From contig NC_087078.1 in assembly GCF_026151205.1 (NCBI RefSeq), positions 2,125,675 through 2,189,674 on the forward strand: a stretch of 64,000 nucleotides of DNA. The letters run 5' to 3'. Every line of letters starts with the position of its first letter. Position 1 is the first letter of the stretch. Of the stretch, positions 7,305-64,000 are shown piece after piece. Under the pieces are notes generated by a model, which was not told the origin of the DNA, searched no databases, and worked only from the letters and a program-made list of their open reading frames with translations. The stretch comes from Bolinopsis microptera (lineage: Eukaryota > Ctenophora > Tentaculata > Lobata > Bolinopsidae). A program made the position numbers and the translations under genes.

Positions 7305-7341
7305 AACGGTTGTGGTTAACAGGTGTTTATTTAGCTGGTTC

Positions 7342-7347: not shown

Positions 7348-7351
7348 CCCG

Positions 7352-21381: not shown

Positions 21382-21546
21382 ATGAACAGTCTACATTCCA
21401 CGAAATTTAGAGTCACTAGAGTAAGTGTACCTATTTAATATGCTCACGCGTCAAATTTTTGCCAGCCGTGAATAAATCTAAAGTTTTCTGCAACAGAGAA
21501 ACATCCCCAGAACTACCAGTCACACCCCCTACACATACACCACAGT
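21382..21546 (+). CDS. Possible first exons leading into the 76/77-bp array
   Basis: ATG at 21382 opens a 13-codon exon (MNSLHSTKFRVTR) ending at the strong donor gtaagtg (21421). A good acceptor (ttttctgcaacag) follows at the first array unit. Its 48-nt core, beginning RNIPRTTSHT, reads in the same phase and ends at donor gtaagtatag. All three sites match the splice consensus and the phase is kept. No homology supports the peptide, and transcription is unproven. It may be the 5' end of the TSPO-like gene downstream or a separate short transcript. Confidence 0.35.
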
Positions 21547-24500
21547 AAGTATAGATACTGTAATGTTAACAGAGAAACATCCCCAGAACTACCAGCCACA
21601 CCCCCTACACATACACCACAGTAAGTATAGATACTGTAATGTTAACAGAGAAACATCCCCAGAACTACCAGCCACACCCCCTACACATACACCACAGTAA
21701 GTATAGATACTGTAATGTTAACAGAGAAACATCCCCAGAACTACCAGCCACACCCCCTACACATACACCACAGTAAGTATAGATACTGTAATGTTAACAG
21801 AGAAACATCCCCAGAACTACCAGCCACACCCCCTACACATACACCACAGTAAGTATAGATACTGTAATGTTAACAGAGAAACATCCCCAGAACTACCAGC
21901 CACACCCCCTACACATACACCACAGTAAGTATAGATACTGTAATGTTAACAGAGAAACATCCCCAGAACTACCAGCCACACCCCCTACACATACACCACA
22001 GTAAGTATAGATACTGTAATGTTAACAGAGAAACATCCCCAGAACTACCAGCCACACCCCCTACACATACACCACAGTAAGTATAGATACTGTAATGTTA
22101 ACAGAGAAACATCCCCAGAACTACCAGCCACACCCCCTACACATACACCACAGTAAGTATAGATACTGTAATGTTAACAGAGAAACATCCCCAGAACTAC
22201 CAGCCACACCCCCCTACACATACACCACAGTAAGTATAGATACTGTAATGTTAACAGAGAAACATCCCCAGAACTACCAGCCACACCCCCCTACACATAC
22301 ACCACAGTAAGTATAGATACTGTAATGTTAACAGAGAAACATCCCCAGAACTACCAGCCACACCCCCCTACACATACACCACAGTAAGTATAGATACTGT
22401 AATGTTAACAGAGAAACATCCCCAGAACTACCAGCCACACCCCCCTACACATACACCACAGTAAGTATAGATACTGTAATGTTAACAGAGAAACATCCCC
22501 AGAACTACCAGCCACACCCCCCTACACATACACCACAGTAAGTATAGATACTGTAATGTTAACAGAGAAACATCCCCAGAACTACCAGCCACACCCCCCT
22601 ACACATACACCACAGTAAGTATAGATACTGTAATGTTAACAGAGAAACATCCCCAGAACTACCAGCCACACCCCCCTACACATACACCACAGTAAGTATA
22701 GATACTGTAATGTTAACAGAGAAACATCCCCAGAACTACCAGCCACACCCCCTACACATACACCACAGTAAGTATAGATACTGTAATGTTAACAGAGAAA
22801 CATCCCCAGAACTACCAGCCACACCCCCCTACACATACACCACAGTAAGTATAGATACTGTAATGTTAACAGAGAAACATCCCCAGAACTACCAGCCACA
22901 CCCCCTACACATACACCACAGTAAGTATAGATACTGTAATGTTAACAGAGAAACATCCCCAGAACTACCAGCCACACCCCCCTACACATACACCACAGTA
23001 AGTATAGATACTGTAATGTTAACAGAGAAACATCCCCAGAACTACCAGCCACACCCCCTACACATACACCACAGTAAGTATAGATACTGTAATGTTAACA
23101 GAGAAACATCCCCAGAACTACCAGCCACACCCCCTACACATACACCACAGTAAGTATAGATACTGTAATGTTAACAGAGAAACATCCCCAGAACTACCAG
23201 CCACACCCCCTACACATACACCACAGTAAGTATAGATACTGTAATGTTAACAGAGAAACATCCCCAGAACTACCAGCCACACCCCCTACACATACACCAC
23301 AGTAAGTATAGATACTGTAATGTTAACAGAGAAACATCCCCAGAACTACCAGCCACACCCCCTACACATACACCACAGTAAGTATAGATACTGTAATGTT
23401 AACAGAGAAACATCCCCAGAACTACCTGCATCCACACCCCCTACACATACACCACAGTAAGTATAGATACTGTAATGTTAACAGAGAAACATCCCCAGAA
23501 CTACCAGCCACACCCCCCTACACATACACCACAGTAAGTATAGATACTGTAATGTTAACAGAGAAACATCCCCAGAACTACCTGCATCCACACCCCCTAC
23601 ACATACACCACAGTAAGTATAGATACTGTAATGTTAACAGAGAAACATCCCCAGAACTACCAGCCACACCCCCCTACACATACACCACAGTAAGTATAGA
23701 TACTGTAATGTTAACAGAGAAACATCCCCAGAACTACCAGCCACACCCCCTACACATACACCACAGTAAGTATAGATACTGTAATGTTAACAGAGAAACA
23801 TCCCAGAACTACCAGCCACACCCCCCTACACATACACCACAGTAAGTATAGATACTGTAATGTTAACAGAGAAACATCCCCAGAACTACCAGCCACACCC
23901 CCTACACATACACCACAGTAAGTATAGATACTGTAATGTTAACAGAGAAACATCCCCAGAACTACCAGCCACACCCCCTACACATACACCACAGTAAGTA
24001 TAGATACTGTAATGTTAACAGAGAAACATCCCCAGAACTACCAGCCACACCCCCTACACATACACCACAGTAAGTATAGATACTGTAATGTTAACAGAGA
24101 AACATCCCCAGAACTACCAGCCACACCCCCTACACATACACCACAGTAAGTATAGATACTGTAATGTTAACAGAGAAACATCCCCAGAACTACCAGCCAC
24201 ACCCCCTACACATACACCACAGTAAGTATAGATACTGTAATGTTAACAGAGAAACATCCCCAGAACTACCAGCCACACCCCCTACACATACACCACAGTA
24301 AGTATAGATACTGTAATGTTAACAGAGAAACATCCCCAGAACTACCAGCCACACCCCCCTACACATACACCACAGTAAGTATAGATACTGTAATGTTAAC
24401 AGAGAAACATCCCCAGAACTACCAGCCACACCCCCCTACACATACACCACAGTAAGTATAGATACTGTAATGTTAACAGAGAAACATCCCCAGAACTACC

Positions 24501-27500
24501 AGCCACACCCCCTACACATACACCACAGTAAGTATAGATACTGTAATGTTAACAGAGAAACATCCCCAGAACTACCAGCCACACCCCCCTACACATACAC
24601 CACAGTAAGTATAGATACTGTAATGTTAACAGAGAAACATCCCCAGAACTACCAGCCACACCCCCCTACACATACACCACAGTAAGTATAGATACTGTAA
24701 TGTTAACAGAGAAACATCCCCAGAACTACCAGCCACACCCCCCTACACATACACCACAGTAAGTATAGATACTGTAATGTTAACAGAGAAACATCCCAGA
24801 ACTACCAGCCACACCCCCCTACACATACACCACAGTAAGTATAGATACTGTAATGTTAACAGAGAAACATCCCCAGAACTACCAGCCACACCCCCCTACA
24901 CATACACCACAGTAAGTATAGATACTGTAATGTTAACAGAGAAACATCCCCAGAACTACCAGCCACACCCCCTACACATACACCACAGTAAGTATAGATA
25001 CTGTAATGTTAACAGAGAAACATCCCCAGAACTACCAGCCACACCCCCTACACATACACCACAGTAAGTATAGATACTGTAATGTTAACAGAGAAACATC
25101 CCCAGAACTACCAGCCACACCCCCCTACACATACACCACAGTAAGTATAGATACTGTAATGTTAACAGAGAAACATCCCCAGAACTACCAGCCACACCCC
25201 CTACACATACACCACAGTAAGTATAGATACTGTAATGTTAACAGAGAAACATCCCCAGAACTACCAGCCACACCCCCTACACATACACCACAGTAAGTAT
25301 AGATACTGTAATGTTAACAGAGAAACATCCCCAGAACTACCAGCCACACCCCCTACACATACACCACAGTAAGTATAGATACTGTAATGTTAACAGAGAA
25401 ACATCCCCAGAACTACCAGCCACACCCCCTACACATACACCACAGTAAGTATAGATACTGTAATGTTAACAGAGAAACATCCCCAGAACTACCAGCCACA
25501 CCCCCTACACATACACCACAGTAAGTATAGATACTGTAATGTTAACAGAGAAACATCCCCAGAACTACCAGCCACACCCCCTACACATACACCACAGTAA
25601 GTATAGATACTGTAATGTTAACAGAGAAACATCCCCAGAACTACCAGCCACACCCCCCTACACATACACCACAGTAAGTATAGATACTGTAATGTTAACA
25701 GAGAAACATCCCCAGAACTACCAGCCACACCCCCCTACACATACACCACAGTAAGTATAGATACTGTAATGTTAACAGAGAAACATCCCCAGAACTACCA
25801 GCCACACCCCCTACACATACACCACAGTAAGTATAGATACTGTAATGTTAACAGAGAAACATCCCCAGAACTACCAGCCACACCCCCTACACATACACCA
25901 CAGTAAGTATAGATACTGTAATGTTAACAGAGAAACATCCCCAGAACTACCAGCCACACCCCCTACACATACACCACAGTAAGTATAGATACTGTAATGT
26001 TAACAGAGAAACATCCCCAGAACTACCAGCCACACCCCCTACACATACACCACAGTAAGTATAGATACTGTAATGTTAACAGAGAAACATCCCCAGAACT
26101 ACCAGCCACACCCCCTACACATACACCACAGTAAGTATAGATACTGTAATGTTAACAGAGAAACATCCCCAGAACTACCAGCCACACCCCCTACACATAC
26201 ACCACAGTAAGTATAGATACTGTAATGTTAACAGAGAAACATCCCCAGAACTACCAGCCACACCCCCTACACATACACCACAGTAAGTATAGATACTGTA
26301 ATGTTAACAGAGAAACATCCCCAGAACTACCAGCCACACCCCCTACACATACACCACAGTAAGTATAGATACTGTAATGTTAACAGAGAAACATCCCCAG
26401 AACTACCAGCCACACCCCCCTACACATACACCACAGTAAAGTATAGATACAGTAATGTTAACAGAGAAACATCTCCAGAACTACCTGCAATCCACACCCC
26501 TACACATACACCACATAAGTATAGATACTGTAATGTTAACAAGAAACATCCCAGAAACTACCACCACACCCCCTACTACATACACCATCAGTAAGTATAT
26601 ATACTGTAATGTTATCAAGAAACATCCCAGACTACAGCCACACCCCCTACACATACACCACAGTAATATAGATACTGTAATGTTAACAGAGCAACATCCC
26701 CAAACTACCAACCACACCCCCCTACACATACACCACGATCAATTATAGATACTGTAATGTAACAGAGAAACTCCCCAGAACTACCAGCCACACAACCCTA
26801 CACATACACCAGAGTAATAATAAATACTGTAATGTTAACAGAGAAACATCCCCACCCCAAGAACTACCAGTCAACACCCCCCTACACATCACCACAGTAA
26901 GTAAGATACTGTAATGATAACCAGAAAAACATCCCCAAACTACCAGCCACACCCCCTATCACATACACCACATAAGTTAGATACTGTAATGTAACAGAGC
27001 AACATCCCCAGAACTACCAAGCCCACACCCCCTACTACACATACACCACAGCAAAAGTATAAGTAAAGATACGTAATGTTATCAGAAAACGAATCCCCTG
27101 GATACTACCGGTATCCACCACCCCCACACATACACCACAGTAAGAATATATAGGCAGGTATAGCTAACTTAGAAACAGCCCAGCACTACCCAGCCCACAC
27201 CCCCCTCACATACACCACCGTAAGTATAAGATACGTTGTAATTTAACAGGAGAACCATCCCAGAACTAAGCCAGCCACACCCCCCTACACATACACCACA
27301 GAAATATAGATACTGATAAAGTATAACAGCGAAACAACATCCCCATAACTACCAGCGCCACACCCCCTACCCATACACCACAGTAATTATAAGAACTGTA
27401 ATGTTAACAGATAAATATCCCCCAGACTACCATCCACACCCCCCTACACATACCACCACAGAAATTATCGATACTGTAATGTTAACAAGAAAGAAACATC

Positions 27501-27545
27501 CCAGAACACCAGCCACACCGCCCCTACACATACACGCACATCGTG
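21499..27545 (+). repeat. 76/77-bp tandem array with exon-like units
   Basis: About 65 very regular units to ~26430, then ~14 units with many small indels to ~27545. Each unit is a 48- or 49-nt core (starting AGAAACATCCCCAGAAC, ending ACACCACA) plus 28 nt that begin GTAAGTATAG and end TGTTAACAG. Every unit therefore presents a 3' splice site before the core and a 5' splice site after it. Units differ mainly in a run of five or six Cs, in blocks that repeat (pattern 5-6-6 recurs), plus a rare CTGCATCC variant at about 23427 and 23581. Long frames read straight through the array are a by-product of the repeat. Confidence 0.95.
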
Positions 27546-30339: not shown

Positions 30340-32162
30340 TCCCTTTGAATCAATCAAACTAGATGAATTGTTGTAAATACTGAGATCAAACTATCAATCT
30401 ACAGGCTATCGTCAAACATGTTGCAAGGCGTCATCTTCAGTGACATAAGCCCTAGAAATTGTAAAAAGTTAGTAAAACCCAAAATTCCTTTAAAAATCTG
30501 AACACTCTTAAAACGGTTATAAAGTTAAAATTAAGAAGTTAGGAGTAATGGAAGGCCAAAAGGATTTATAGTGTTAATTCCCAAAGGTTTTAAAGTCTTG
30601 AGTAGTTGAATATATTTATGTTCACGGACATCCAAAGTTTTAGGACTAGAATTATCAATAATTGACACATTAAAAATTTTGTTAAAATCTTCCCTTTGTC
30701 TAAAACCATGATCCAACAAATGTAAACCCAAACTATATTCATCACTTGTTTCATCTACCTTATCACCATTTAAAAGTTTGTAATATTTGACCCTATGTTC
30801 TCCAGTCCTAACCCGTAGAGATCGAGTTGTGCGACCGACGTAAGCCTTTCCACAGACACTACATTGGAACAGATAAATGATGTTGTAGCTCTGGCAGTTT
30901 CCAGGGGAAGCTTTAACCTTCTTGCCGTTCACTTTGAATTCACGGGTGCCTTTGACAAGTTCACAACCTTTGCATCTTGGCACATTGCATTTGCTGGTTG
31001 GGCCATGTTGAGCTCCTAAAGCAAGTTCTTTCAATTTGACGAGGCGAGATTTTAGGCTTGGCCCTGTTTTCTTTGTGTAACTGAAAATTGTCTTTCTAGG
31101 CGTGGTGGATGTTGAGGAGGTCTCTTGGGATGTTTCAGCAGTGTCACTTTCACTAAAACTCCTCGTTCTTGAGAGGTGTTCTTCATACTTCTTAGTCACA
31201 GACACCAGATCATCATCACTACCATAAGTAGATATGACCCTGATTGGAAGATGTAATGATGTCTGGTCATCAGGAGCCTGAACTTTGCGTGACAGTGATC
31301 TTGCTGTGTTAAGGACCTTATTACTGATGTTCTCAATCATTTTTCTAGGGTAACATGCGGCAAGGAATGCTTTTTTGAGGTTGTTGAGATGTTCTTTCAG
31401 GCGTTCTTGGCAGTTGATGATCCTTCTGAGTCTAAGGCATTGAGAGTACACGATACCGGAATAGATATGGTTAGGGTGGGAGCTTTTAAAATGTAGATAT
31501 GAACGAGAGTCTGTTGGTTTTATGAACAAATCCGTTTGGAGGGATCCTAAGGAATCGAAGGTGAACATTATGTCAAGGAAAGATACGTATTTACCAGGAT
31601 CTTCTATTTGGTATTCATCAATGATTAGGCCATGGGAGAGGAGTGCTTTGTTAACATCTGCAATCCAAACTTTGAACTCATCTGTAGTTCCCTCAAACAT
31701 ACCTGCTCCGTCGTCAATGTAACGCCTGGCTGATACGATCTTATTCATGATCTCTGGGTTCCTATAAACACATTTGTTCATTAGGTAGTAGACTGCTATG
31801 TTTGCGATTTGGACACATAGTGATCCACCCGTAGGGATACCGATGAGCTGTATGAACCAATTTTGATCGAACACCCCAGCAGAGGATCGAAGGCTCAATT
31901 CCACCAATTTGGTGAGCCATTTGCAGAAATCTTCAGACCAATCTTCTCTGCATGATGACATAGCGGAATTCAGGGCCTCTATGGCTTGCTCTAACCATGA
32001 GAGCCCTCTCGCTTGCAGTTGTGAAATAAGCGCGTCACGCAGTACGCGTAGACCTATGGCTATCTGAAGACTAATGGAGCTCATTGTCTCATCATCAGAA
32101 ATATAGATACTACCACCTTTATCATCTAGTGTGATGAGGCCTGATACTTCACGATGGATCAT
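30340..32162 (-). mobile_element. Penelope-like element, 3' half with RT and GIY-YIG
   Basis: Minus-strand frame 32162-30531 (543 aa). It holds the RT palm with the active-site variant RRYIDDGAGMFEG, and the SSHPNHIYSGIVYSQCLRLR block typical of Penelope-like RTs. A Cys-rich linker (CNVPRCKGCEL) follows, then a GIY-YIG endonuclease (NIIYLFQC, GKAYVGRTTRSLRVR-x-GEHR, and ...KYIQLLKTLKPLGIN). The endonuclease makes the nick used for priming. The N-terminal part of RT is missing, since full elements encode ~800 aa or more. The 3' untranslated tail runs to about 30340 and is shared with the fragment at 44303-44822. Confidence 0.85.
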
Positions 32163-32949
32163 GTTGGTCTTCCCTTACCTGAGGACCCCAGGCTGAGCGC
32201 GGCCCAGTAAGGTCTTCCCCTTCCTCTAAGATGCATGTTCTATAGTACGCTTTAAGTCCTCCATCAGAATCTCTAGTCTCTTATCCGGTTCAGGAGGCTA
32301 GGATGTGCCTACTGCCTGTTGGTGATAAACTATTCAGGTAACACTATTGGTGAGCTGTAGTCATATCCGAGCGTGCTAAATCACTCTACAGTCGTTCTTC
32401 GAGATTGTTCTAAAAGGGCCCCGACAGTTGAAACCAACCTCAATAGATGTACTTTCGGACGCTGATTCCGAATCACCCCCATGACATAGGGTTAAAATGC
32501 TCCCCTGACGAGATATTGCCGAAAAACTGTTTCGATCACGTGATATGACCGTATAAGGAAGTTAGTCTAATATCTAGTTAGGGTTAGGGTTTCAGCATAT
32601 GCTTTTGTTAAGGATTGGGTTAGGGTTAGGGTTGGGATAAGATTAGAGGGTTAGGGTTTCGAACAGTCGTTCAGGACCAGCTAGAGAAAGGATTGAAAAA
32701 GTCACGTAACAGTCGAGTGTAGTACTAGTAGAGTGATTAATCATCATCCAGTCATATCTGTTTCTGCAGGGTCTTCCTCGCTGTCCATAGGAGGGTTTTT
32801 ACTCTGGTGTTAGGCTGCCCATGCCACCTTTCTACTAAAGAGTTTGCCGTCATACATGTGCTTTCTAAAGCAAGATAGAGGTAAACACCATTTGGAATGC
32901 CGAGGGAAGAAAAGTTGATTTTCTTATAAATATCTTCAACACTCGTAGG

Positions 32950-33960: not shown

Positions 33961-34641
33961 TTAACCAAAATGTAGATATGAACGAGAGTCTGTTGGTTTT
34001 ATGAACAAATCCGTTTGGAGGGATCCTAAGGAATCGAAGGTGAACATTATGTCAAGGAAAGATACGTATTTACCAGGATCTTCTATTTGGTATTCATCAA
34101 TGATTAGGCCATGGGAGAGGAGTGCTTTGTTAACATCTGCAATCCAAACTTTGAACTCATCTGTAGTTCCCTCAAACATACCTGCTCCGTCGTCAATGTA
34201 ACGCCTGGCTGATACGATCTTATTCATGATCTCTGGGTTCCTATAAACACATTTGTTCATTAGGTAGTAGACTGCTATGTTTGCGATTTGGACACATAGT
34301 GATCCACCCGTAGGGATACCGATGAGCTGTATGAACCAATTTTGATCGAACACCCCAGCAGAGGATCGAAGGCTCAATTCCACCAATTTGGTGAGCCATT
34401 TGCAGAAATCTTCAGACCAATCTTCTCTGCATGATGACATAGCGGAATTCAGGGCCTCTATGGCTTGCTCTAACCATGAGAGCCCTCTCGCTTGCAGTTG
34501 TGAAATAAGCGCGTCACGCAGTACGCGTAGACTCATGGCTATCTGAAGACTAATGGAGCTCATTGTCTCATCATCAGAAATATAGATACTACCACCTTTA
34601 TCATCTAGTGTGATGAGGCCTGATACTTCACGATGGATCAT
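33961..34641 (-). pseudogene. Penelope-like RT fragment (second copy)
   Basis: 226-aa copy of the RT frame made by the tandem duplication. It has the YIDD active site but is cut at the duplication junction after SRSYLHF, losing the rest of RT and the GIY-YIG domain. It differs from the first copy at AIGLRV versus AMSLRV. Confidence 0.9.
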
Positions 34642-36438
34642 GTTGGTCTTCCCTTACCTGAGGACCCCAGGCTGAGCGCGGCCCAGTAAGGTCTTCCCCT
34701 TCCTCTAAGATGCATGTTCTATAGTACGCTTTAAGTCCTCCATCAGAATCTCTAGTCTCTTATCCGGTTCAGGAGGCTAGGATGTGCCTGTTGGTGATAA
34801 ACTATTCAGGTAACACCATTGGTGAGCTGTAGTCATATCCGAGCGTGCTAAATCACTCTACAGTCGTTCTTCGAGATTGTTCTAAAAGGGCCCCGACAGT
34901 TGAAACCAACCTCAATAGATGTACTTTCGGACGCTGATTCCGAATCACCCCCATGACATAGGGTTAAAATGCTCCCCTGACGAGATATTGCCGAAAAACT
35001 GTTTCGATCACGTGATATGACCGTATAAGGAAGTTAGTCTAATATCTAGTTAGGGTTAGGGTTTCAGCATATGCTTTTGTTAAGGATTGGGTTAGGGTTA
35101 GGGTTGGGATAAGATTAGAGGGTTAGGGTTTCGAACAGTCGTTCAGGACCAGCTAGAGAAAGGATTGAAAAAGTCACGTAACAGTCGAGTGTAGTACTAG
35201 TAGAGTGATTAATCATCATCCAGTCATATCTGTTTCTGCAGGGTCTTCCTCGCTGTCCATAGGAGGGTTTTTACTCTGGTGTTAGGCTGCCCATGCCACC
35301 TTTCTACTAAAGAGTTTGCCGTCATACATGTGCTTTCTAAAGCAAGATAGAGGTAAACACCATTTGGAATGCCGAGGGAAGAAAAGTTGATTTTCTTATA
35401 AATATCTTCAACACTCGTAGGATGTTATTTTTCATTTTTTCCTTCTTTGCTAGTCGGGTTAGAAACACTCATGAAGTGCTGGAGCGTGCAAAGATAAATC
35501 CAGTAGAGATGTACATAGGAGCAAACCGCCTGCGTTGGTTTGGCCATGTCACCATAATGCCAGACACTAGGCTTCCTAAGTACCTGCTTAACTGGACCCC
35601 TGCGCATGGGAGAAGATCTAGGGGTCGTCCAAGAAAGAACTGGATGAAATGTTTGTTGGAAGATGCTGCAGCGTTTACAGGAAACACTGACATAGACCTA
35701 GAAGGAGCGAGCGAGATGGCTAGTGACCGCAAACTTTGGAGGGAGATGATACGTCACAAACGGGAGTTCATTGGTGCAGGCCACTCGAATGATTGAGGAG
35801 ACCTAATCAAGTACAAGTACAAGTTGCTAGTCGTCGTTGCGTGTCATGCTTTTTGTTACGGGTTTTCTGCAGAATGTGTGTTTCTTCTTTCTCGTAGGCT
35901 TGAGAGGCACTATACTGTGTGGAAAATGATTGGTGGCGTTATTCTTCCTTCAATGATCATCAGATCGGGAAAAATTGTACAGCTTTTCAGTAGATACTTA
36001 TGTTGAAGGTCAGGGGCAGACAAAAGGGGATAGCTAATTACTGATTACTGATTCTATTTTCTGTGGCAGAGGTATGTTAAAGCAGCAGGTAATGACGCTG
36101 CTTGAGGTGTGGAATTTAGGACGAAAACAGAAAACTACAAGGTGTGATAGGGGTTGGGGACGACTTGTTTTTGGATGAATACTGAATAACTGAATACTCC
36201 TACAGGAGAACTTGCGTTCCTTTTAGAATTAGAAGCTGGTTCGCCCATTATTTTAATTTTAAGGGAATGCTGGTCAATACGAATTGTGAGGATGTGGAAA
36301 AGATCTATTCAAATTTTAGAAGTACATTTTAGATTTTTCAGGGTTATAGGTACTCTAGTAGCAGGGAATAGTTGAGTGTGCACTTCGATGTGTACTATTT
36401 CTGACAACACAGGGTTGTTTGTTATGTCATACTTAACC
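33967..36438. repeat. Tandem segmental duplication, unit 2 (2,472 bp)
   Basis: Second copy of 31488-33966. At its right end the E2 sequence continues intact, so this is the original context of the E2 end and unit 1 is joined to Penelope sequence by the duplication. Confidence 0.95.
35422..35796 (+). pseudogene. LINE reverse transcriptase C-terminal fragment (copy 2)
   Basis: Identical at protein level to the fragment at 32950-33324; copied by the tandem duplication. Confidence 0.8.
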
Positions 36439-39215
36439 AAAATCGTGTGGGTGCACAATTTGTTTCGCTAGAGACAACCCTACAGGGCAAATTTTCTAAA
36501 TTACCCTCAGTCGCGTATACGATATTTTCGTATTTCGGCTCCTGAAGGTCATAGGGACTTCAATTTTGGCTTAAAATTACCGCAATAGCCATATTTATAT
36601 ACAACTTATGAAGCAACATAAGGTCTCCAGTGCTTTGTTTTATAGATATTGACAAAAAACTGTTTTTTGGCTCAGCGAACCAAAAATGGGACTGAATTTT
36701 GGTAACTTGAACTAGGAAGATCGTAGAGACTTGAATTTTAGCTTAAAATGAGCGCAAACATCACATTTATATACAACTTATAGAGCAATATAAGCCCTTT
36801 AATGCTTATTTGTTAAGATATTGACAAAAATCGGTCATTTTGACTACACGCGTGAGGAAAAATACCAAATTGGGCAACAACTTTGGTCTTTTTTTTAACC
36901 AGTTTTGTGCTCAAGTTATTAAAATGTGCTTTGATGTTGTAGATCGGGTGTTTTCTTCCAATATGGGTTTCGGTATAAATCCGGAAGCACCCGGTTCATG
37001 GGTGATAGGGGTTAAAAACCCTAAAATGTCAGGCGATGGGCGAGACAATTGTCTGAATTTGGTTATAAAAACACTTGCACTCTTTCACTCTTTGCTAGGG
37101 TTTGCTTTTTTCTGCTACATCGATCCGATTTCTAACTACTAATCATCCCCCTCTACATCATTCTCTTTTAGATACATGATTTCTATAAGTTCTTGAAGGT
37201 ACATCCGGCATGATGTAAAGTCTATATCAAAGCATTTTAATGTGGTCTTAACAAGTTGCAAGATATTCAAGTTCACTAATAAAACAGAGATTGTAGGATA
37301 TTCTTCTTTTACATATTGAGTAATTGTGGGCTTTTTGAGGGGAGGCTATAAAATGGCCAAATATAACTTTAAAACGTAAACGACCCAATAATTATATTAA
37401 ACGTAGAATGAAACTACTTAAAACTTATACAGATTCATGGTATCCTGTTTCAAGACGCTTGCTCCTGATTTTTAGCAACAATATCGACTGACCCCACGAC
37501 GTTGTAATATAATTGTGGGTAGGCTATCACTTGATCTATAAGTTTTGAACGGTAGTTTGTAAAAATAATTACATCCTACAAACATTATACGCTCCTACTA
37601 TGCAATTACTAGCCTCTGGACTAACTCCCAATCATCTGTCCATATAATGGTGTTTCTGGACAGATAGATGGTGTATGATGTCCTCGTGCTAAATTCAGCG
37701 ATCTTCATGCAGGCCTTTTTCTCTTTAGTGTTTACGTTCAGGTGGTTCATAAAGGTTTGGAGGCTGCAGTTGTAAATGCCTCGAACTCGAACTCGAACTG
37801 CTACTGTCTGGAGCTTGCAATCTCTTCTGTCAGCTGCTGATATCTCTTAATATTCTTTTCTCTTGATCAGCAAAGTTCTCTTTATTTCAGATGCACCTTC
37901 TTCGCTTTATCTGAATAGATTACTACATCTGGTCTCAGTGGTATTACACTAATGTAATGTCTAACAATAACGTTTATAAGTGCTAAAATTTCGAACTAGC
38001 GGACCATATTCGGAGGAGAAATTTGGGGCAGTTTTTTGCTTGGAAATACTGATTTAATCGAATTTTAACCACAAAATGACTCCCAATAATATTCTTATGG
38101 AGAGTGTGGATAAATATTAAATATTTAAAATAATACAGGTTTGACTATAAAGTTGCGTCAATAATCATGTAAAGAATAATAGATAACCTACAATCTTCGT
38201 TTGGTAAACCAATTTGGTATCTTTCCTCACATGTGTAACCAAAATTACTCAATAATCAATATGTAAAAGAAGAATATCCTACAATCTCTGTTTTATTAGT
38301 GAACTTGAATATCTTGCAACTTGTTAAGACCACATTAAAAAGCTTTGATATAGACTTTACATCATGCCGGATGTACCTTCAAGAACTTATAGAAATCATG
38401 TATCTTAAAGAGAATGATGTAGAGGGGGATGATTAGTAGTTAGAAATCGGATCGATGTAGCAGAAAAAAGCAAACCCTAGCAAAGAGTGCAAGTGTTTTT
38501 ATAATCAAATTCAGACAATTGTCTCGCCCATCGCCTGACATTTTAGGGTTTTTAACCCCTATCACCCATGAACCGGGTGCTTCCGGATTTATACCGAAAC
38601 CCATATTGGAAGAAAACACCCGATCTACAACATCAAAGCACATTTTAATAACTTGAGCACAAAACTGGTCTAAAAAAGACCAAAGTTGTTGCCCAATATG
38701 GTATTTTTCCTCACGCGTGTAGTCAAAATGACCGATTTTTGTCAATATCTTAACAAATAAGCATTAAAGGGCTTATATTGCTTTATAAGTTGTACATAAA
38801 TGTGATGTTTGCGCTCATTTTAAGCTAAAATTCAAGTCTCTACGATCTTCCTAGTTCAAGTTTCCAAAATTCAGTCCCATTTTTGGTTCGCTGAGCCAAA
38901 AAACAGTTTTTTGCCAATATCTATAAAACAAAGCACTGGAGACCTTATGTTGCTTCATAAGTTGTATATAAATATGGCTATTGCGGTAATTTTAAGCCAA
39001 AATTGAAGTCCCTATGACCTTCAGGAGCCGAAATACGAAAATATCGTATACGCGACTGAGGGTAATTTAGAAAATTTGCCCTGTAGGGTTGTCTCTAGCG
39101 AAACAAATTGTGCACCCACACGATTTTGGTTAAGAATGACCTAACAAACAACCCTGTGTTGTCAGAAATAGTACACATCGAGGTGCACACTCAACTATTC
39201 CCTGCTACTAGAGTA
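36351..39215. mobile_element. Long-inverted-repeat element E2, 2,865 bp
   Basis: Begins TACTCTAGTAGCAGGGAATA and ends with its mirror image, flanked by AGG on both sides (36348-36350, 39216-39218). The arms are ~0.98 kb (36351-37329 and about 38236-39215), nearly identical. The loop holds a decayed retroelement-type fragment. The duplicated locus at 58632 lacks the element, giving an empty site (gggttataggg-atatatgaag) that differs by one base from a clean excision. The ~100-aa frames in the arms lie at mirror positions and are broken in the diverged arm at 50529, so they are probably not genes. Confidence 0.8.
37605..37965 (-). pseudogene. Decayed retroelement-associated endonuclease-like fragment
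   Basis: On the minus strand one frame reads VPLRPDVVIYSDKAKKVHL; further on, another frame reads VRVRGIYNCSLQTFMNHL and IAEFSTRTSYTIYLSRNTI. The spacing and residues recall the RPDxV...K..ELTVPxE / VxCRGFxxxS / AExAS.WIW pattern of a PD-(D/E)XK-like ORF common in invertebrate retroelements. Stops and frame changes show it is dead. It occupies the loop of E2. Confidence 0.4.
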
Positions 39216-39441
39216 AGGATATATGAAGCATTTTAATAGAAGACGGCAATGTAAAAGAGTAGTTAACTGTGGCAGCAATTGAAAGCAATGTCTACTGACA
39301 AAAAAAACTTTTTGATAAAATTTACACTTGAAATTCGTACTTTTTACATCACTGCATCTACATATCATAATTCGTTCACAAGCATACCCCAACGCACGTC
39401 TACCCTGAACAATTTACTTTCTCTAAAATTGCTAATTGAAC

Positions 39442-40386
39442 ATGTTTTTAACACAACCATTTAATCTCATAGCCAAAACAATGGGACAAATTCCCCTTGT
39501 TAGACAAAGGGGAATTGCAGACCAAGCCCAGTCTATTGAAGTTATTGATTGTTCGGACGATAATGGAACATGTTATGAGGTGAATTCAACGTTCGGAGAA
39601 TATATGGGATCCGCCATAAATCCGTACCACAATTTTGAACGTGAGGCAATTTGGGCAAGAGAAATGGTTTGCCCTGGCGCTGCGAAATATAATACTCTAG
39701 TGACAGGACTAAACCGTGTGAACGAAGAAAGATATACTAAGGCTGAACACTGGGCTTTCATAGCTTATTCGAGAACGAGAGGGGACAATGATGTGATTAA
39801 GGAGGCCTTTATTATCGCTCATCTCAACATATTTGAATACATCTCAACGCCCCAAGGAAACACCTTTTTTGGAAGATGGTGGTTTCCAACTTGGAAAAAA
39901 ATGTTTAAACCACTTAACACCAAAGACAAAAGAGGAGCAGCCTTAAAAATGCAATCCTCTGAATTGAATCCCCAAGATGTGTGGCTTATCTATCCAGACA
40001 TTCCTGCTGATGGACAAAGATTCGTCCTTAGAAATGGGGAGTTGGAAAACGAACTGTTTGATGAAAATGACTGGAAGGCGCTCTTACCGCCTGTTACGAA
40101 TGGAGAGCTGATTGACCGTATCGTCAGAAGATGCTCAGGTAAAAATTACAATATTTTTAACTTCAACTGTCAACACTTTGCAATAAAACTCCTATCGGAC
40201 GAGAACCATTCCCTAAATTCGGAAATTTCGTGGAAGACGATTTTTCAGGTTCTGAAAATGTTTTTTAGTGATAATTTTTATTGTTTTTTATCACTGTTAG
40301 TTATGATTCTCTCGTGTATACTTTTTCATTCATGCTTCATAAAAAGTGCTGATAACGGCAGTATGAAAATAGACATATTTAAATAA
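39442..40386 (+). CDS. LRAT-like membrane protein 1 (copy A)
   Basis: 314 aa, intronless. NlpC/P60-type thiol fold of the LRAT/PLAAT family: His box AEHWAFIAYSRT (His103) and catalytic box NIFNFNCQHFAIKLL (Cys243, His245), matching the family's H-W-A and NCEHF motifs. Relatives transfer acyl groups between lipids at membranes. A C-terminal hydrophobic segment (about 279-300) with a short basic tail suggests a tail anchor, as in PLAAT proteins. The ATG at 39442 is in frame after an upstream TTG; a second Met follows at residue 14. The duplicate at 58856-59794 differs mainly in the last 60 residues and supports the reading. The region before it, to 39215, is the E2 junction. Substrate not predictable. 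Confidence 0.8.
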   Translation: MFLTQPFNLIAKTMGQIPLVRQRGIADQAQSIEVIDCSDDNGTCYEVNSTFGEYMGSAINPYHNFEREAIWAREMVCPGAAKYNTLVTGLNRVNEERYTKAEHWAFIAYSRTRGDNDVIKEAFIIAHLNIFEYISTPQGNTFFGRWWFPTWKKMFKPLNTKDKRGAALKMQSSELNPQDVWLIYPDIPADGQRFVLRNGELENELFDENDWKALLPPVTNGELIDRIVRRCSGKNYNIFNFNCQHFAIKLLSDENHSLNSEISWKTIFQVLKMFFSDNFYCFLSLLVMILSCILFHSCFIKSADNGSMKIDIFK

Positions 40387-40449
40387 TATATTTTGTATAT
40401 ATACAAGATACTTGTCACTGAGTTTGATTTTTTGTTCTGATTTATTCTC

Positions 40450-41269
40450 TTTCTCTCAAAAATCCGCTCCATTAGCCATGACCTTCTTATTGAGAGAGGG
40501 AGATACACAAAAGAAACTGGAACGTGGACGAGAGCCTGCAGATTCTGCTGCAACAAGGAGAACGTTCAAGGCTTAGAATATCTCCCCTTTTTCGAAGGAA
40601 CAATCATTGAAAATGAAGAACACTGCCTCACTGAATGTCCAATGTACCACTCAGCGAGACTCTCACTGTCGGAAAACCTTAAGAGTCTTTTGCTGCTCAA
40701 GGAATACGGAGCTATCATGAATTCTGCCCATGTGCAAGAACTGGGCAAATTCCTTTGCAACGGTTACCGCATCAGGAACCCGAAAAAGACGCCAATACTG
40801 CCTGTGACCCCATCAGGACTACCAACTCAACAGACATAATACAGATCAACCATCATTATGCAGATTTCACGATCTGTTGTACGAGCATGGAACACTAGTG
40901 ATTAATGTTTCCAGTACATTGTGACTGTGAGTGGGAGGACTGTTCGAGTATGAATGTGTCTTTTGTGGACTCGAATACTGATATCGCAGTTTAGTGATCA
41001 TTGAAGTTGCCTTTTACTACTTCCTCTTATGTTAAATTATTATTTCAGCAATTATTTCTATTTCGGTTGTTTGTACGGGAGTTAAATTTTAAGTGTTTTT
41101 GTTTTAAATTTTCATGATTCTTGAAATTCGAATTTTACTTACTCTAGGTATGTTATTCATTCATGTATAGTCGAGACGATGGTGTTAGTGCCATCTCCGA
41201 CAACTTTACGTTTAATTCCGTTTAATACCGTTTAATTCCGTTTAATTCCGTTTAATTCCGTTTAATTCC
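40450..41269 (+). mobile_element. LINE 3'-end insertion, 820 bp
   Basis: Absent from copy B, where gatttattctc runs straight into atcgtttttcat, so both ends are exact. It reads the C-terminal Cys-rich tail of a non-LTR RT (RSISHDLLIERGRYTKETG, ACRFCCNK, NEEHCLTECPMYHSARL). The 3' end is a microsatellite of TTTAATTCCG (about five units, 41219-41269), as usual for LINE tails. 5'-truncated and inactive. Confidence 0.85.
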
Positions 41270-41699
41270 ATCGTTTTTCATATCAAAGAATTAATGAAAA
41301 GAGATGAGTTCAACAGTATTCAATCCCATAGCGGGTGTTTTATTAATTACTCCTAAATAAATAAGTTTATCGTTTCCATCAACACTTTCTATGCATGCTG
41401 CAGAAACATTGTGAGATATAATCGAATTTGATGATAAATATGAGTTTTCCAATCACTTTCGATAGAAATATAAAATGTTAACTTACTATGTCAACAACTT
41501 TTATTAACTTTTGTTCCCATGTCTTGTCTATGTGTTTCACTAATCTATACACTATAAAGGGTGCCCCACAATTACTTACATACGTCATCGTTCTGATATA
41601 ATCGATCAGTCCTATCTAAACTGATACAAAGAATCAGAACAATAATTGTGAACTGACCTATAAAATGAATTTGGGCCACACTGTGCCATAAAGATACAG

Positions 41700-41706
41700 C
41701 TATAAA
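41700..41706 (+). promoter_or_regulatory. TATA-like box of LRAT-like gene 2 (copy A)
   Basis: CTATAAATCG, conserved with 60311-60318 in copy B and about 30 nt upstream of the first ATG. Part of a ~170-bp conserved upstream block. Confidence 0.35.
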
Positions 41707-41731
41707 TCGTAAACCCATCTTTTGCTTTCTA

Positions 41732-42523
41732 ATGATAACATGGGTTAACACTTTATTTTCTTACGATAACATTAACAATTACTATCTTAGCATGCGAATC
41801 GATGGACTTCTCGATGGACTTGGAGGAGGGTATCGAATTCGAGTTATAATGATAGTTGGTACAGTAGTAATCACACCGTTTCTTGTGCAATTGGCAAGAC
41901 ATTTGTTGGGGAAGAAGAAGATCCCACTTTACAGAATTGATTCAGCACTCCTTAAGTTTATGGAGCACTTGGGCGATGGCTACAATTTTACCCATATTGC
42001 AGTATGGGCTACCGACCAGATAATAGTGCCGACTGCCTTCCTCGATAAGATTGCAGCATTTCAGTCCTCAAAGGGATACCCTACAATTGAGCATAAAGCT
42101 TTGATAGCACGTGGGACTGTCAAAGTCAATGATATTGAGAAGCATGCCTTCTTTATTGCTCAGTTCAATTACTATGATCATGATTTCATCCCAGACAAAG
42201 ATAATGATATCGATACAAATAATACTGTGGGACTGGGAGAATTCAAACCATTCGTAGCTTTATTCACTGGTGACAAAAAGATCGCAGCATTGAGCATTAC
42301 ACCATCCCCTGAATCTAATGTATGGGTCATCCCATTGGACTGCGAAGTAATAGATCTTGAAAGTGCAATAACGAAATTTGTATATAAAAATGAACTATTG
42401 GTCAGTACCGAATTCAAAGAAGAAGAATGGATTTTGATGGATAAATCAATGAAGCTCAGAGAGCTGAATGCCTGCATTTACAAAACTTCGTGCATTTTGT
42501 TAATCGTTTTGTTGCTTGTATGA
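41732..42523 (+). pseudogene. LRAT-like protein 2 (copy A), C-terminus damaged
   Basis: Shares almost all of the LRAT part of the copy B gene at 60356. It has an N-terminal transmembrane segment (IRVIMIVGTVVITPFLVQLA) and a His box NFTHIAVWATDQ. At ACIYKTSC it departs from copy B: about 38 nt covering CSGKKYDV and the NC-box equivalent are missing, the frame shifts, and a hydrophobic run and stop follow. The donor that in copy B leads to the next exon is not recognisable. Either a broken gene or one with a new end. The ankyrin exon at 49320 would have been its downstream partner before mobile elements filled the interval. Confidence 0.65.
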
Positions 42524-48730: not shown

Positions 48731-49019
48731 CAGTTTTTATAGTTTTTGGCCTATAACTCCCAAAGTTTTAGTTATTTCGAAATGAATTAAATAAGCTCAT
48801 GATCAGCTAATCGAGACGAAACTTTTGGTACTAATATCTTAAAATTTAAAGAAATATTATTTTTTTAATTTGGAACCTGAACACAACATGAACAACTCTT
48901 GTGCGGATTTTTTTTTAATTGTTTGAAACATTTGGTCCTTCAAATATAAAAATATTGTAAGGCTCATGATAGTCGGTGCCGCGCACTCTGCACTCGACTG
49001 TCACGTGACTTTTTAAACA

Positions 49020-49319
49020 CGTCCTCTACTTCTAGGTGGCTTTCAATGACTATTCGAAACTATTTATTTCAAACCCTATTTCAACTGTCATGGGTCCTTT
49101 TACAAACATCTCGAAGATCGACTGTACAGTGATTAAGCACGCTGTGCCAACTCATGGCGCGTATTACATAAACTTCCAGTTAAAGAATTTTGCATTTGCG
49201 CTAAAAACGAGGCAGCACTGTTATCACTTGTTATACAAAATTTAGCTTTTTAAACAAATTTTGTTAAAAATTGATAATAATTTGGTTACAAAAATAATAC
49301 AACATACACATAATTTCAG
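49020..49319 (+). repeat. Intron block shared with copy B
   Basis: Strongly similar to 61480-61822 (gactattcgaaa, aaaacgaggcagcactg, gataataattt). It ends at the same splice acceptor (taatttcag here, catcatttcag in copy B). Confidence 0.85.
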
Positions 49320-49689
49320 GACAAAGCAAGAATATGGGCGTACTGCACTCTACTTCACTTTACAAAAAAGGAATTTAGATGTGGTTTGTGACTTAGTTGA
49401 GGCTGATGCTAATGTTAACGAAAAGACGGACGGTGGGTGTACTGCACTTCATGTAGCTACACAAGAAGGGAATTTAAATGTAATTCGTTACTTAGTTGAG
49501 GCTGGTGCTAATGTTAACGAAAAGACGGACAATGGGAGTACTAGACTTCATGTAGCTACACGAAAAGGGAATTTAGATGTGGTTCGTTACTTAGTGGAGG
49601 CTGGTGCTAATGTTAACGAAAAGACGGACGATGGGTGTACTGCACTTCATGACGCTTCACTAAAAGGGAATTTAGAGGACCTTTACTGA
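49320..49689 (+). CDS. Ankyrin-repeat exon, truncated
   Basis: Starts after acceptor cataatttcag. About 3.5 ankyrin repeats follow, with the consensus TALHVATQEGNLNVIRYLVE and AGANVNEKTD, so it is a protein-interaction module. The last repeat is cut at KGNLE by a 10-bp tandem array, with a stop three codons later. The acceptor context and first codons match the exon at 61823 in copy B, where it follows an LRAT-like domain. The likely original architecture here is therefore LRAT-like plus ankyrin. The link to 41732 is now interrupted by the LINE and mariner. Confidence 0.75.
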
Positions 49690-58855: not shown

Positions 58856-59794
58856 ATGTTTTTAACACAACCATCTAATCTCATAGCCAAAACAATGGGA
58901 CAAATTCCCCTTGTTAGACAAAGGGGAATTGCAGACCAAGCCCAGTCTATTGAAGTTATTGATTGTTCGGACGATAATGGAACATGTTATGAGGTGAATT
59001 CAACGTTCGGAGAATATATGGGATCCGCCATAAATCCGTACCACAATTTTGAACGTGAGGCAATTTGGGCAAGAGAAATGGTTTGCCCTGGTGCTGCGAA
59101 ATATAATACTCTAGTGACAGGACTAAACCGTGTGAACGAAGAAAGATATACTAAGGCTGAACACTGGGCTTTCATAGCTTATTCGAGAACGAGAGGGGAC
59201 AATGATGTGATTAAGGAGGCCTTTATTATCGCTCATCTCAATCTATTTGAATACATCTCAACGCCCCAAGGAAACACCTTTTTTGGAAGATGGTGGTTTC
59301 CAACATGGAAAAAAATGTTTAAACCACTTAACACCGAAGACAAAAGAGGAGCAGCCTTAAAAATGCAATCCTCTGAATTGAATCCCCAAGATGTGTGGCT
59401 TATCTATCCAGACATTCCTGCTGATGGACAAAGATTCGTCCTTAGAAATGGGGAGTTGGAAAACAAACTGTTTGATGAAAATGAATGGAAGGCGCTCTTA
59501 CCGCCTGTTACGAATAGAGAACTGATTGACCGTATCGTCAGAAGATGCTCAGGTAAAATTTACAATATTTTTAACTTCAACTGTCAACACTTTGCAATAA
59601 AACTCCTATCGGACGAGAACCATTCCCTAAATTCGGAACTAAAGTGGAAGACGATTTTTCAGGTTCTGAAAATCTTTTTAAGTGATCATTTTTATTGTTT
59701 TTTATCACTGTTAGTTATGATTCTCTCGTTTATACTTGTAGTTATCATAAAATATGCTGATAACGGTAGTATGAAAATAGACATATTTAAGTAA
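58856..59794 (+). CDS. LRAT-like membrane protein 1 (copy B)
   Basis: 312-aa duplicate of 39442-40386, with His box AEHWAFIAYSRT and catalytic box NIFNFNCQHFAIKLL unchanged. Most differences are in the last 60 residues: the tail helix is FYCFLSLLVMILSFILVVII, more hydrophobic than in copy A. That the two catalytic boxes stay identical while the tail drifts suggests both copies kept function for a time. It sits ~560 nt before the LRAT-nuclease gene on the same strand. Confidence 0.8.
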   Translation: MFLTQPSNLIAKTMGQIPLVRQRGIADQAQSIEVIDCSDDNGTCYEVNSTFGEYMGSAINPYHNFEREAIWAREMVCPGAAKYNTLVTGLNRVNEERYTKAEHWAFIAYSRTRGDNDVIKEAFIIAHLNLFEYISTPQGNTFFGRWWFPTWKKMFKPLNTEDKRGAALKMQSSELNPQDVWLIYPDIPADGQRFVLRNGELENKLFDENEWKALLPPVTNRELIDRIVRRCSGKIYNIFNFNCQHFAIKLLSDENHSLNSELKWKTIFQVLKIFLSDHFYCFLSLLVMILSFILVVIIKYADNGSMKIDIFK

Positions 59795-60355: not shown

Positions 60356-62950
60356 ATGTCGATAATAATAAAGCTTGTTGTGATACACACTTTATTTTCT
60401 TACGATAACATTAACAATTACTATCTTAGCATGCGAATCGATGGACTTCTCGATGGACTTGGAGGAGGGTATCGAATTCAAATTATAATGATAGCTGGTG
60501 CAGTAGTAATCACAGCGTTTCTTGTGCGATTGGCAAGACATTTGTTGAGGGAGAATAAGATCCCACTTTACAGAATTGATTCAGCACTCCTTAAGTTTAT
60601 GGAGCACTTGGGCGATGGCTACAATTTTACCCATATTGCAGTATGGGCTACCGACCAGATAATAGTGCCGACTGCCTTCCTCGATAGGATTGCAGCATTT
60701 CAGTCCTCAAAGGGATACCCTACAATTGAGCATAAAGCTTTGATAGCACGTGGGACTGTCAAAGTCAATGATATTGCCTTCTTTATTGCTCAGTTTAATG
60801 ACTATGATTTCATCCCAGATAAAGATAATGATATCGATACAAATAATACTGTGGGACTGGGAGAATTCAAACCATTCGTAGCTCTATTCACTGGTGACAA
60901 AAAGATCGCAGCATTGAGCATTACAACATCCCCCGAATCTAATGTATGGGTCAGCCAATTGGACTGCGAAGTAATAGATCTTAAATGTGGAGTAAATAAA
61001 TTTGTATATAAAAATGAACTATTGGTCAGTACCGAATTCAAAGAAGAAGAATGGATTTTGATGGATAAATCAATGAAGCTCAGAGAGCTGAATGCCTGCA
61101 TTTACAACACTTCGTGCTCTGGCAAAAAGTACGATGTGAACAACAACAACTCTCGACACTTTGTAAGTGAATTGTGGAACTCTCTCAAGACTTGCAATGA
61201 AAGGTAATCGTAATAATAATATGTGTAATGTGCGTATGTGTTTTTATTTGTGATTCAATGTTTCAAATTTGTTAGTGTATACTGTATAACCAAGCACGAT
61301 GGGGGTTTCAGGTTTCGAAATAACTGAAACTTCAACAGTTTCAGTTATTTCGAAATGAATTTATTCGGCTATAATGTTCATAAACATAATAGCCGAATAG
61401 AGATTCGGCGGAATGACGGGCTGACTCAGCTGAGCGCCGCCCAGTAAAGTCCTCCAAGTCCAAACGTCATTTTACCTTTAGGTGGCTCTGAATGACTATT
61501 CGAAATTATTTATTTCAGACCCTATTTCAACTGTCAAGGGCCCTTTTAAAACCTTTTCGAAGATCGACTGTAGAGTGATTTAGCACACTGTGCCAACTCA
61601 TGGCGCTTATTACATAAACTACCAGTTATAGAATTTTGTATTTGCGCTAAAAACGAGGCAGCACTGTTAATGTTATCATTTGTTATACAAAAATTAGCTT
61701 TTTAAACAACCGGATATCGCCATACAAAAACGTAAATTTATTTTTATGAAGAATAACAAATTTTTGTTAAAAATTGATAATAATTTAGTTACCAAAATTA
61801 TTCAACATTCACATCATTTCAGGACACAGCGAGAATCTACAAATGTTATCCAAAAAGACGATCTTGATACGATACAATTTATTTCAACTCACCAGGATGA
61901 CACCCTATCCCTACGCAAAAAGCTTTACTACGCTTTAAATCAAAGGTATGTTGTTGATAAGACTTTGTTGTTTAGACTTGAGATGTGGAAATTTGACAGT
62001 TGAATCATGCATCATTTCAATTTTTTTCGTACCTCAACTAACGACCGCACGTATTTCGTTTCAGCCTTGTGTATGAAATTTCATATATTGCTATATCATT
62101 GTCGTAGTTTCGAAACTTGAATAAAGAAATAAAGGTACACAATTATTTCAGAGAACTCGAAATGGAGGAATATCTCAAGAACGGGAAAGATATCTACGAT
62201 ACGTATTGTACGTCAACAGAAACACGCCCAATCATGCTACCTAAAGCTCCACAACACACGTATATTGACGTATACCCAGATGAAGGTGAGTCTGGTCCCA
62301 GTTTTAAAGATGATAAAAAACGTCAGTTAGACTATGAGACCGAAGTTGTAGTTTATAGAGCACTGGAGGAGCTACTAGATGAAGATATAAACGTTCTACA
62401 CAGTTTCGAATATACTCACCGTCAATATCGTTTGTGCGATAAAAGTCATGTTAGAAAAGGGTGTGTGGCTTGCCGAAAAACACCAAACAATCGCGAGGGA
62501 GAGTGCGATTTTTTGATCATAGGAAAGAACTATTTTGTGATCATTGAAGTGAAGAATATGACAAGTTTTAGTGAAGCAAAACAGCAGAATCCTGGATTAG
62601 ATGAACAACAGCATAAGTTAGGATTGCAGGGATCATACAAGAAATCAGAAAAACAGAGGGAAAGAATGGTGAAATTGATCAGAAGCATCGAGAACAGCAC
62701 AAATATCTCCCACTTTACAGCTTATCCTAACTTCACGAAGGGATCCAGAGCAGAACTTACATTGGAGTCTGATCAGCTATCATCGGTTATATTCAAAGAA
62801 GATACAGAAGATTTTGCATCTTGGTGGAAAGGCAACGTTACAGATTTTCACACGGAAGAAGCTTTGAACTCTGACTTTCAAGCAAAACATGATAAAGTCA
62901 GGAACATGCTGCTTGCAATTTGGTGTACGGATAATAAGGGCCACTGTTGA
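60356..62950 (+). CDS. LRAT-like / NERD-type nuclease fusion protein, three exons
   Basis: Exons 60356-61203, 61823-61945 and 62152-62950 join in phase (AAAG|gtaatc to catttcag|G, then CAAAG|gtatgt to ttatttcag|A), giving ~589 aa. Residues 42-59 form a membrane helix. The LRAT-like part has its His at NFTHIAVWATD (His93) but Ser266 where Cys is expected (CSGKKYDVNNNNSRHF, compare CSGKNYNIFNFNCQHF in LRAT-like 1), so acyltransferase chemistry is doubtful. The last exon encodes a PD-(D/E)XK/NERD-like core: EGECDF (Asp443) and VIIEVKN (Glu456, Lys458), preceded by a Cys cluster (RLCDKSHVRKGCVACRK). NERD domains are predicted nucleases or nucleic-acid binders, often joined to helicase or kinase modules; here the protein stops soon after IWCTDNKGHC, perhaps cut short. 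The start could also be the conserved Met at 60431. Exon joining is inferred. Confidence 0.6.
61208..61822 (+). other. Intron 1 of the LRAT-nuclease gene
   Basis: The second half (61480-61822) is the block shared with 49020-49319. A stretch at 61423-61455 (gctgagcgccgcccagtaa) resembles Penelope flank sequence near 32190. Confidence 0.5.
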
Positions 62951-63442
62951 TGACATTGAGGGAAAGAATTACATTATGACAACGTTATGTTCTTTGCCGG
63001 AGGTTAATCAGGGCAACCGTTATATCTGGATAGTTCATGACATGGCACAGGGTAGTTGTTGTATAGTTTTTTTTATCAATAAACTTTCAAATTGTTACAC
63101 AAATACATCATTTTATTTCAAAGAAAATATCGCCGAATGACCTTACATGCCTTGACAAGTGACCGAGTGTAAACAAAATAAGGGACACCGAAACACCAGT
63201 TGACCAGTAATCATAGCAATTACATCGGGCCCTAAATGCACCTATAAGTGAAGCGATGCTGCAACCGAGGCATGCTAGGTTTATTCCATTGAATTAATAA
63301 GGTTACAGCCTAAAATATAAATATAACAAATAACAATGTACCATAAATCATAATTATAAACACACTTTATTTAACATATTTTATTAATTATACTTTTTAT
63401 CAATTTATATTCAGACAATATAGTTACATTAAGGTAAATTGT
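62951..63442. other. 3' flank and LINE tail
   Basis: A frame at 62970-63140 (NYIMTTLCSLPEVNQGNRYI) may be a displaced continuation of the nuclease protein. Beyond ~63300 the sequence is likely 3' untranslated tail of the LINE. Confidence 0.35.
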
Positions 63443-64000
63443 TTAACTGTCAGAGGATGTTATATGGTCGTTTAGAACTGTCCAGAGGTACTTAATTAAA
63501 TGGGTTTTAAACACGGATGGCCTTGAGATTTCCCTTAATTCATAAGGGAGTTTATTCCAAAGAATGTGTGCTCTGTAAAAGTAAGACTTAGATATGCCTG
63601 AACATCTGGTCTGGCTTGACGTAAGGTTTTGTGGAACTTGAGGAGAAATGTCACTAATCATACTGAGATCGTCTAGATGTGATCGCCTTAACCTACTTCC
63701 CATGAAACGTCGTAAGTAAGGTGGAAATGTCACAACTGACATGTCATAAAAAATATTATGAAAATATAATATATCCTTGTAATCAAACCTTACCGAGAGT
63801 GGAAGGATATTTAGTTCCTTACACGCTATGAAATACCTTTTTTTGTCCCTAAGGCTCAAGTAAATATCATTAAGGATCCACTTGATACCTCTTTTTTGTA
63901 TCGATTCAAGTTTCTCCACCGAGGTTTCTGAATGAGGCCGCCAGACAATTGTGCAGTGTTCGAAATGACTTCTAACCTGAGATAGATAGAAGGCCCGACG
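63443..64000 (-). pseudogene. CR1-like LINE ORF2, C-terminal part, runs off the window
   Basis: Frame is open to the window edge: SQVRSHFEHCTIVWRPHSET, KLESIQKRGIKWIL, LNILPLSVRFDYKDILYFHN, ending YRAHILWNKLPYELREISRP and a stop. This is the standard post-RT region of CR1-like elements (LExIQxR, WNxLPxxxR). The RT core lies outside the window, so integrity cannot be judged. Confidence 0.8.

Follow-up and report, generated by a model that had tools for sequence, protein, structure and literature searches.

In the ctenophore Bolinopsis microptera, positions 60356-62950 of a 64,000-nucleotide segment of contig NC_087078.1 (hereafter the window, meaning the whole segment that was analyzed) can be read as a single gene in which an LRAT-like segment is joined by splicing to a NERD nuclease-like domain. 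Is this pairing a protein architecture in its own right, or a product of the way the locus was assembled? The three exons with fitting splice sites and phases described in the original prediction could be retraced: all borders follow GT-AG, both junctions are in phase 2, and the joined frame of 589 amino acids ends in TGA (Table 1). Exon 3 carries the GECDF-(12)-EVK pattern that had been claimed for it, and the proposed NERD nuclease-like domain was borne out by the Pfam profile (PF08378), which scored above its curated cut-off of 22.1 bits for both the joined protein (29.1 bits) and exon 3 (31.2 bits, 3.4e-7). We consider it quite likely that the stretch arose recently by an accidental join at the DNA level, in which the front of a NERD-helicase gene copy that is itself broken came to be linked to a duplicated LRAT-like gene. 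The resulting LRAT-like-NERD chimera is probably young, specific to this locus, and without a selected function.

Table 1. Features of the window that bear on the join (positions count from the first base of the window; locus names, L, denote places in the same genome).
Feature	Position	Strand	Remarks
Sister block	39214..42493	+	DNA copy; holds a copy of gene A (39481-40383) and a copy of gene B exon 1
Ankyrin-repeat exon behind a similar acceptor	49320..49683	+	Ank_4 2.3e-29; same phase as exon 2 of the window gene
LRAT/PPPDE-like gene A	58895..59794	+	Single open frame with motif NCQHF and, by eye, a hydrophobic segment at the C-terminus
Exon 1, LRAT/PPPDE-like gene B	60356..61203	+	N-terminal hydrophobic segment (by eye) and domain, with Ser replacing the motif Cys
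GTAATC, proposed donor of intron 1	61204..61209	+	Overlaps in-frame TAA 61205-61207
Intron 1 (3' part) with its acceptor and exon 2 up to base 14	61464..61836	+	Similar to 49019-49333
Proposed exon 2	61823..61945	+	123 bases
Intron 2, first intron of the NERD-helicase family	61946..62151	+	Common to the family from its first base
Exon 3, NERD	62152..62950	+	Family's own Met at 62162; TGA at 62948-62950 from the deletion junction
Remnant of the helicase half after the 586-bp deletion	62948..63065	+	99% to L002:2882-2999
End of a high-copy LINE-like element inserted in the helicase remnant	63066..64000	-	

The NERD part of the window copy is undamaged. Its motifs read YETEV, GECDF, and IIEVK, it retains the E, D, and E-x-K residues of its family, which we take to be the catalytic residues of PD-(D/E)XK enzymes, and it contains no stop. 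The same residues are present in 11 of 11 close copies, with variation around them in L012 (YEAEV), L006 (ECDF without the preceding G), and L002 (IIEAK). Downstream of the family's Met, the window NERD differs from the state common to L002, L003, and L005 by 1 nonsynonymous and 2 synonymous changes, which are too few to distinguish constraint from youth. Sequence searches of the PDB returned no match for the NERD exon or for the family member L018; with the family profile, they gave two P-loop matches and a weak one to Fur.

When the NERD exon was searched against the genome that contains the window (264.65 Mb, 232 contigs), this copy proved to be part of a large family, found at no fewer than 146 places that correspond to at least 141 loci on 13 contigs, all of these family counts being lower bounds. 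An open frame of at least 700 amino acids without a stop in the match was seen at 77 of the 146 places, two of which belong to a single locus that has stops in the piece between them, while every piece carries a stop in 13 of the 141 loci. Full-length members consist of NERD followed by a helicase-type P-loop part. The NERD domain was recognized by Pfam in L005 (6.2e-7), L018 (4.6e-8), and L017 (1.5e-8); matches to the P-loop part of these three proteins were weak and mostly below cut-off. For L005, they comprised the Schlafen group 3 helicase (PF09848; 5.9e-5, below cut-off) and ResIII (1e-4, just above), and for L017, UvrD (2.6e-5) and NPHP3_N (2.2e-5), both above cut-off. Across 10 aligned members, the NERD residues E65, D122, E135, and K137 (L018 numbering) are invariant, and P-loop, DDxQ-like, LSKNLRNT-like, and SRAR motifs follow in that order.

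Pairwise comparison of L012 with nine other copies, that of the window included, gave dN/dS values of 0.15-0.21, and values among closer copies, which differ by few changes, were 0.22-0.94. Overall, the NERD-helicase family has evolved under constraint. Members are also found in clusters, with 8 loci at C12:12.80-12.91 Mb, where some copies have stops, and 9 at C13:8.008-8.056 Mb. Individual copies vary in form: L002 has a shortened frame of 341 amino acids, and L064, listed with a 1042-aa frame in the genome search, has no ATG-started frame of 400 amino acids. L063 (495-4016, minus strand) holds a 1173-aa open frame in one piece, with matches to NERD (9.3e-8) and ResIII (3.5e-6); by eye, it starts with a hydrophobic segment at the N-terminus, and a first, degenerate NERD-like part can be made out. 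In L006, the 5' intron and the start of NERD are doubled in tandem (820-1130 and 1314 onward).

The borders of DNA homology indicate how the window copy came to lie behind exon 2. Alignments to L002, L003, L004, L005, L007, and L009 all start at 61945, immediately before the GT with which intron 2 opens, and those to L006 and L010 (61967) and to L008 (62057) start later. Over 61945-62947 the window is 97% identical to L002, which lies on another contig and is the sister of the window copy in a tree of 12 copies (support 0.94). In the 80 bases before the join, six copies (L002-L005, L007, and L009) end alike in GATCTACACTCG, whereas the window has the different sequence of exon 2. This 5' stretch of the six copies is presumably the 5' exon of the NERD family; its last 80 bases before the donor contain no ATG in five of the six copies and one in L007, and more DNA common to family copies lies further upstream. 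Among the 15 copies shown, the intron acceptor is present in nine (L002-L010) and absent in the six more distant ones. The shared boundary and acceptor identify intron 2 as the first intron of this part of the family, with the join at its donor, and since homology begins at the family's own donor (61946), the 5' DNA of the family is missing from the window copy.

Two other derivations were considered. Exon 2 could have been part of the family's own 5' exon, which we rejected because it is unlike that exon by eye and has no second genome match: no further match to 61837-61945 was listed in the search of the window's own genome. Dispersal of NERD by a mobile element carrying it was thought unlikely, because the close copies share gene-like 5' DNA and an intron.

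At the other end of the NERD exon, the window lacks 586 bases that are present in L002 (62947/62948), and the deletion junction creates the TGA. The helicase remnant is then interrupted by an insert of 4,070 bases starting at 63066, whose far end lies outside the window and which we call LINE-like on account of a reverse-transcriptase-like frame recognized by eye. Its first 375 bases occur at 40 places with at least 95% identity among the matches listed, the window's own included. The helicase sequence resumes beyond the insert at C7:2192810 (L069), with 96.5% identity to L002 over 800 bases. As a result of the deletion, the TGA, and the insert, the four helicase-part motifs conserved in the aligned members are gone from the open frame of the window copy.

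The other half of the predicted protein belongs to a less clearly defined group. Among eight proteins (gene B, five relatives, gene A, and the copy of gene A), PPPDE matched six (best 7.3e-5) and LRAT four (best 0.011), all weakly; for gene A itself, both Peptidase_C97 (0.0057) and LRAT (0.029) were below cut-off. The window gene B protein matched neither LRAT (PF04970) nor PPPDE (PF05903) in Pfam. The label LRAT-like given in the original prediction is thus a weak one. The catalytic Cys of LRAT sits in an NCEHF-like motif. An N-C-x-(H/N)-F pattern, the feature shared with PPPDE (Peptidase_C97) and LRAT, is found in gene A (N-C-Q-H-F) and in the Cys-bearing relatives L034, L036, L037, L038, and L039. 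At the same place, window gene B reads NNNSRHF (N-S-R-H-F) and thus differs from PPPDE and LRAT in having Ser for Cys. Ser is also found in L033 and L035, so that the change from Cys is older than the locus and not by itself a sign of decay. The genes with the motif Cys in L036-L039 are LRAT/PPPDE-like and lie at C8:17.88-18.05 Mb and C1:22.4 Mb; L038 and L039 have long Ala/Gly-rich N-terminal stretches. Sequence searches of the PDB gave no match for the four window LRAT-like sequences and six for a wider LRAT-like set, all with E 1.1 or worse.

The second LRAT-like gene that had been noted nearby is gene A, and the description of the locus as duplicated and rearranging was apt; the window contains block copies of gene A (39214-40449, 96%) and gene B (41256-42493, 91%). 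The gene B copy in this sister block is broken at 42493, and the block has no NERD match. A search of the genome for the LRAT-like domain gave 17 places, the two of gene A included. The nearest NERD copy is the same one for all four places in the window, at 1.8 and 3.2 kb for the block that includes the join and 20-23 kb for the sister block, and is at least 88 kb away for the remaining 13. A conserved LRAT-NERD architecture was rejected because only these 4 of the 17 LRAT-like places, all in the window, adjoin a NERD copy (within 23 kb).

Further features were seen elsewhere in the window. A 547-aa frame (30531-32174, minus strand) resembles reverse transcriptase with a GIY-YIG-like tail, presumably as in Penelope-like elements, and is partly repeated at 33961-34653. 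A 6-kb array of a 76-bp satellite with about 79 copies and a strong strand skew occupies 21492-27540. A 283-aa frame (6510-7361, minus strand), which by eye has two halves resembling each other and a signal-like N-terminus, may encode a secreted protein. Elsewhere in the genome, one glutamate receptor matches PDB chains of ML032222a iGluR, a Mnemiopsis protein (256 aa, 181 bits), although the total scores of longer kainate-receptor chains are higher; for a second receptor, ML032222a was not among the 60 of 246 matches listed. The first match agrees with a ctenophore source without proving it.

From these observations, the following course of events can be proposed. One member of the NERD-helicase family would have been copied to this locus, cut at the donor of its first intron, and placed behind exons 1 and 2 of the duplicated LRAT/PPPDE-like gene. 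The deletion and the LINE-like insertion broke its helicase half. Transcription through the LRAT-like gene could let the family intron splice and give rise to the 589-aa LRAT-like-NERD chain, which would most likely be a by-product without selected function.

Whether exon 1 is spliced at all bears on this proposal. Its frame continues into a TAA that lies within the proposed donor, so that gene B may also be read as a single-exon gene. On that reading, the stretch would comprise two units, an LRAT/PPPDE-like gene ending at this TAA and an unrelated NERD-helicase pseudogene without the family's 5' exon, to which we give somewhat less than an even chance. The lack of that exon from the NERD unit is consistent with it, as are the single open frame of gene A, the in-frame TAA within the donor of both the window and L033, the plain stops of L036-L039, and the roughly 7.4 kb after L033, where neither ankyrin nor exon 2 gave a match with E below 0.6. 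However, an AG/GT occurs at the end point of exon 1 in L033 (GAGAG/GTAAGC) and L035 (ACAG/GTATAT), in phase 2 as in the window (phases by eye), which means that exon 1 may be spliced onward; L034 has no AG/GT in that phase (by eye). In addition, the acceptor at 49019-49333 that resembles that of intron 1 leads in phase into ankyrin repeats, so that the older gene may have been an LRAT-like-ankyrin gene. Together, the AG/GT sites and the ankyrin acceptor suggest that the LRAT-like gene once had a further exon. A dispersed repeat of 65 bases (61525-61589) lies within the similar stretch, with full-length matches only at the window's two places. A literature search found no paper on LRAT with a domain fusion and ankyrin.

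The joined protein could also be a young functional chimera, in which the promoter of the LRAT-like gene drives, and its N-terminal hydrophobic segment anchors, a NERD nuclease freed of its helicase. We regard this as unlikely, as we do a selected function of the joined protein in general. The junctions are in phase, and the join falls exactly at the family donor. Intron 2 has kept its donor and its acceptor, and its frame fits, for which the chance is one in three. Of 114 AG sites in 61208-62950, 15 can be joined openly to the NERD frame, of which that of the original prediction (62152) alone precedes the family Met. Skipping of exon 2 would also keep the frame, the catalytic NERD residues are retained, and an AATAAA at 63078, within the insert, could terminate the transcript. 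The Ser form is shared with L033, and exon 1 of these two genes shows a dN/dS of 0.35. By contrast, a dN/dS of 1.03 separates exon 1 from its sister copy (5.5 synonymous and 20.5 nonsynonymous changes), the donor of exon 1 doubles as a stop and has no G at +5, the helicase was lost through a deletion and an insert, and NERD is borne by just 1 locus among the 17 LRAT-like places. The undamaged NERD, the intact intron 2, the AG/GT in L033 and L035, and the Ser form fit a young pseudogene equally well. In a more specific form, this would be the birth of a new gene, with an LRAT/PPPDE-ankyrin gene having swapped its ankyrin exon for NERD at a splice donor and being expressed as a membrane-anchored, helicase-free protein; the large, immune-like NERD-helicase family of the ctenophore would then be the source of the nuclease. 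We give this version only a slim chance. Far less probable still is that the three exons are a pre-existing gene from which the dispersed NERD-helicase copies arose: homology alone would allow it, but the close copies share 5' DNA that is absent from the window, most of them still have the helicase half, and in the tree the window copy falls within the family. An accidental join remains our preferred reading. The purposeful membrane-tethered nuclease of the original prediction is not supported. Its NERD exon represents the start of a NERD-helicase gene that was cut at its 5' end, carries a deletion, and is interrupted by an insert, although the chimera could still be expressed.

The intact family can be compared with several known systems. 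It resembles the PD-(D/E)XK nuclease-like NERD (PF08378) in its Pfam match and in the E, D, and E-x-K residues invariant in the 10 aligned members, and differs from it in an additional invariant CxxC (C107 and C110 in L018). The order of NERD followed by a P-loop helicase-like part is shared with prokaryotic NERD-helicases in PADLOC. Of 10 members searched, RTasNERD-Hel matched six (best 3.5e-11), C3a187 ("NERD+UvrD") seven, and Nhi eight. Among the matched stretches of three members, those to Nhi, C3a187, and GajB are confined to the P-loop region, and the RTasNERD-Hel match in L017 covers the NERD part. In a review table, NERD is listed in Mokosh type I and Nhi-like defence (PMC10952713). 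Unlike the prokaryotic systems, the Bolinopsis genes form a multigene family in an animal genome, and the window copy's frame is without the helicase half. When the family profile was used to look for prokaryotic relatives, 50 pattern matches were obtained, none of them confirmed. Schlafen proteins share the weak P-loop match of L005, but the Bolinopsis family has NERD at the N-terminus, and for three of its members the listed families do not include a Schlafen core. Among titles and abstract openings, no study devoted to animal proteins with PF08378 was found, nor was any on NERD combined with helicase and schlafen or with ctenophore. In an animal paper (PMC13126795), "nuclease-related domain" is used once, for MARF1, and NERD is absent from the main text of PMC11797021.

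Intact members are probably nucleic-acid-processing enzymes, in which cleavage by NERD would be driven or placed by a superfamily-1-type helicase. By analogy with the prokaryotic systems, and given the clustering of the loci, the intact family possibly serves in defence against foreign or mobile nucleic acid. The antiviral role that had been suggested for the fusion is more plausible for the intact family, in which 6 of 10 members match the prokaryotic defence model RTasNERD-Hel. Although probably accidental in itself, the LRAT-like-NERD fusion draws attention to a family with at least 141 NERD-helicase loci in a single animal genome, which is the more interesting find. The domain order of this family matches that of prokaryotic anti-phage NERD-helicases, and its clusters, close duplicates, and broken copies would be in keeping with a family engaged in conflict.
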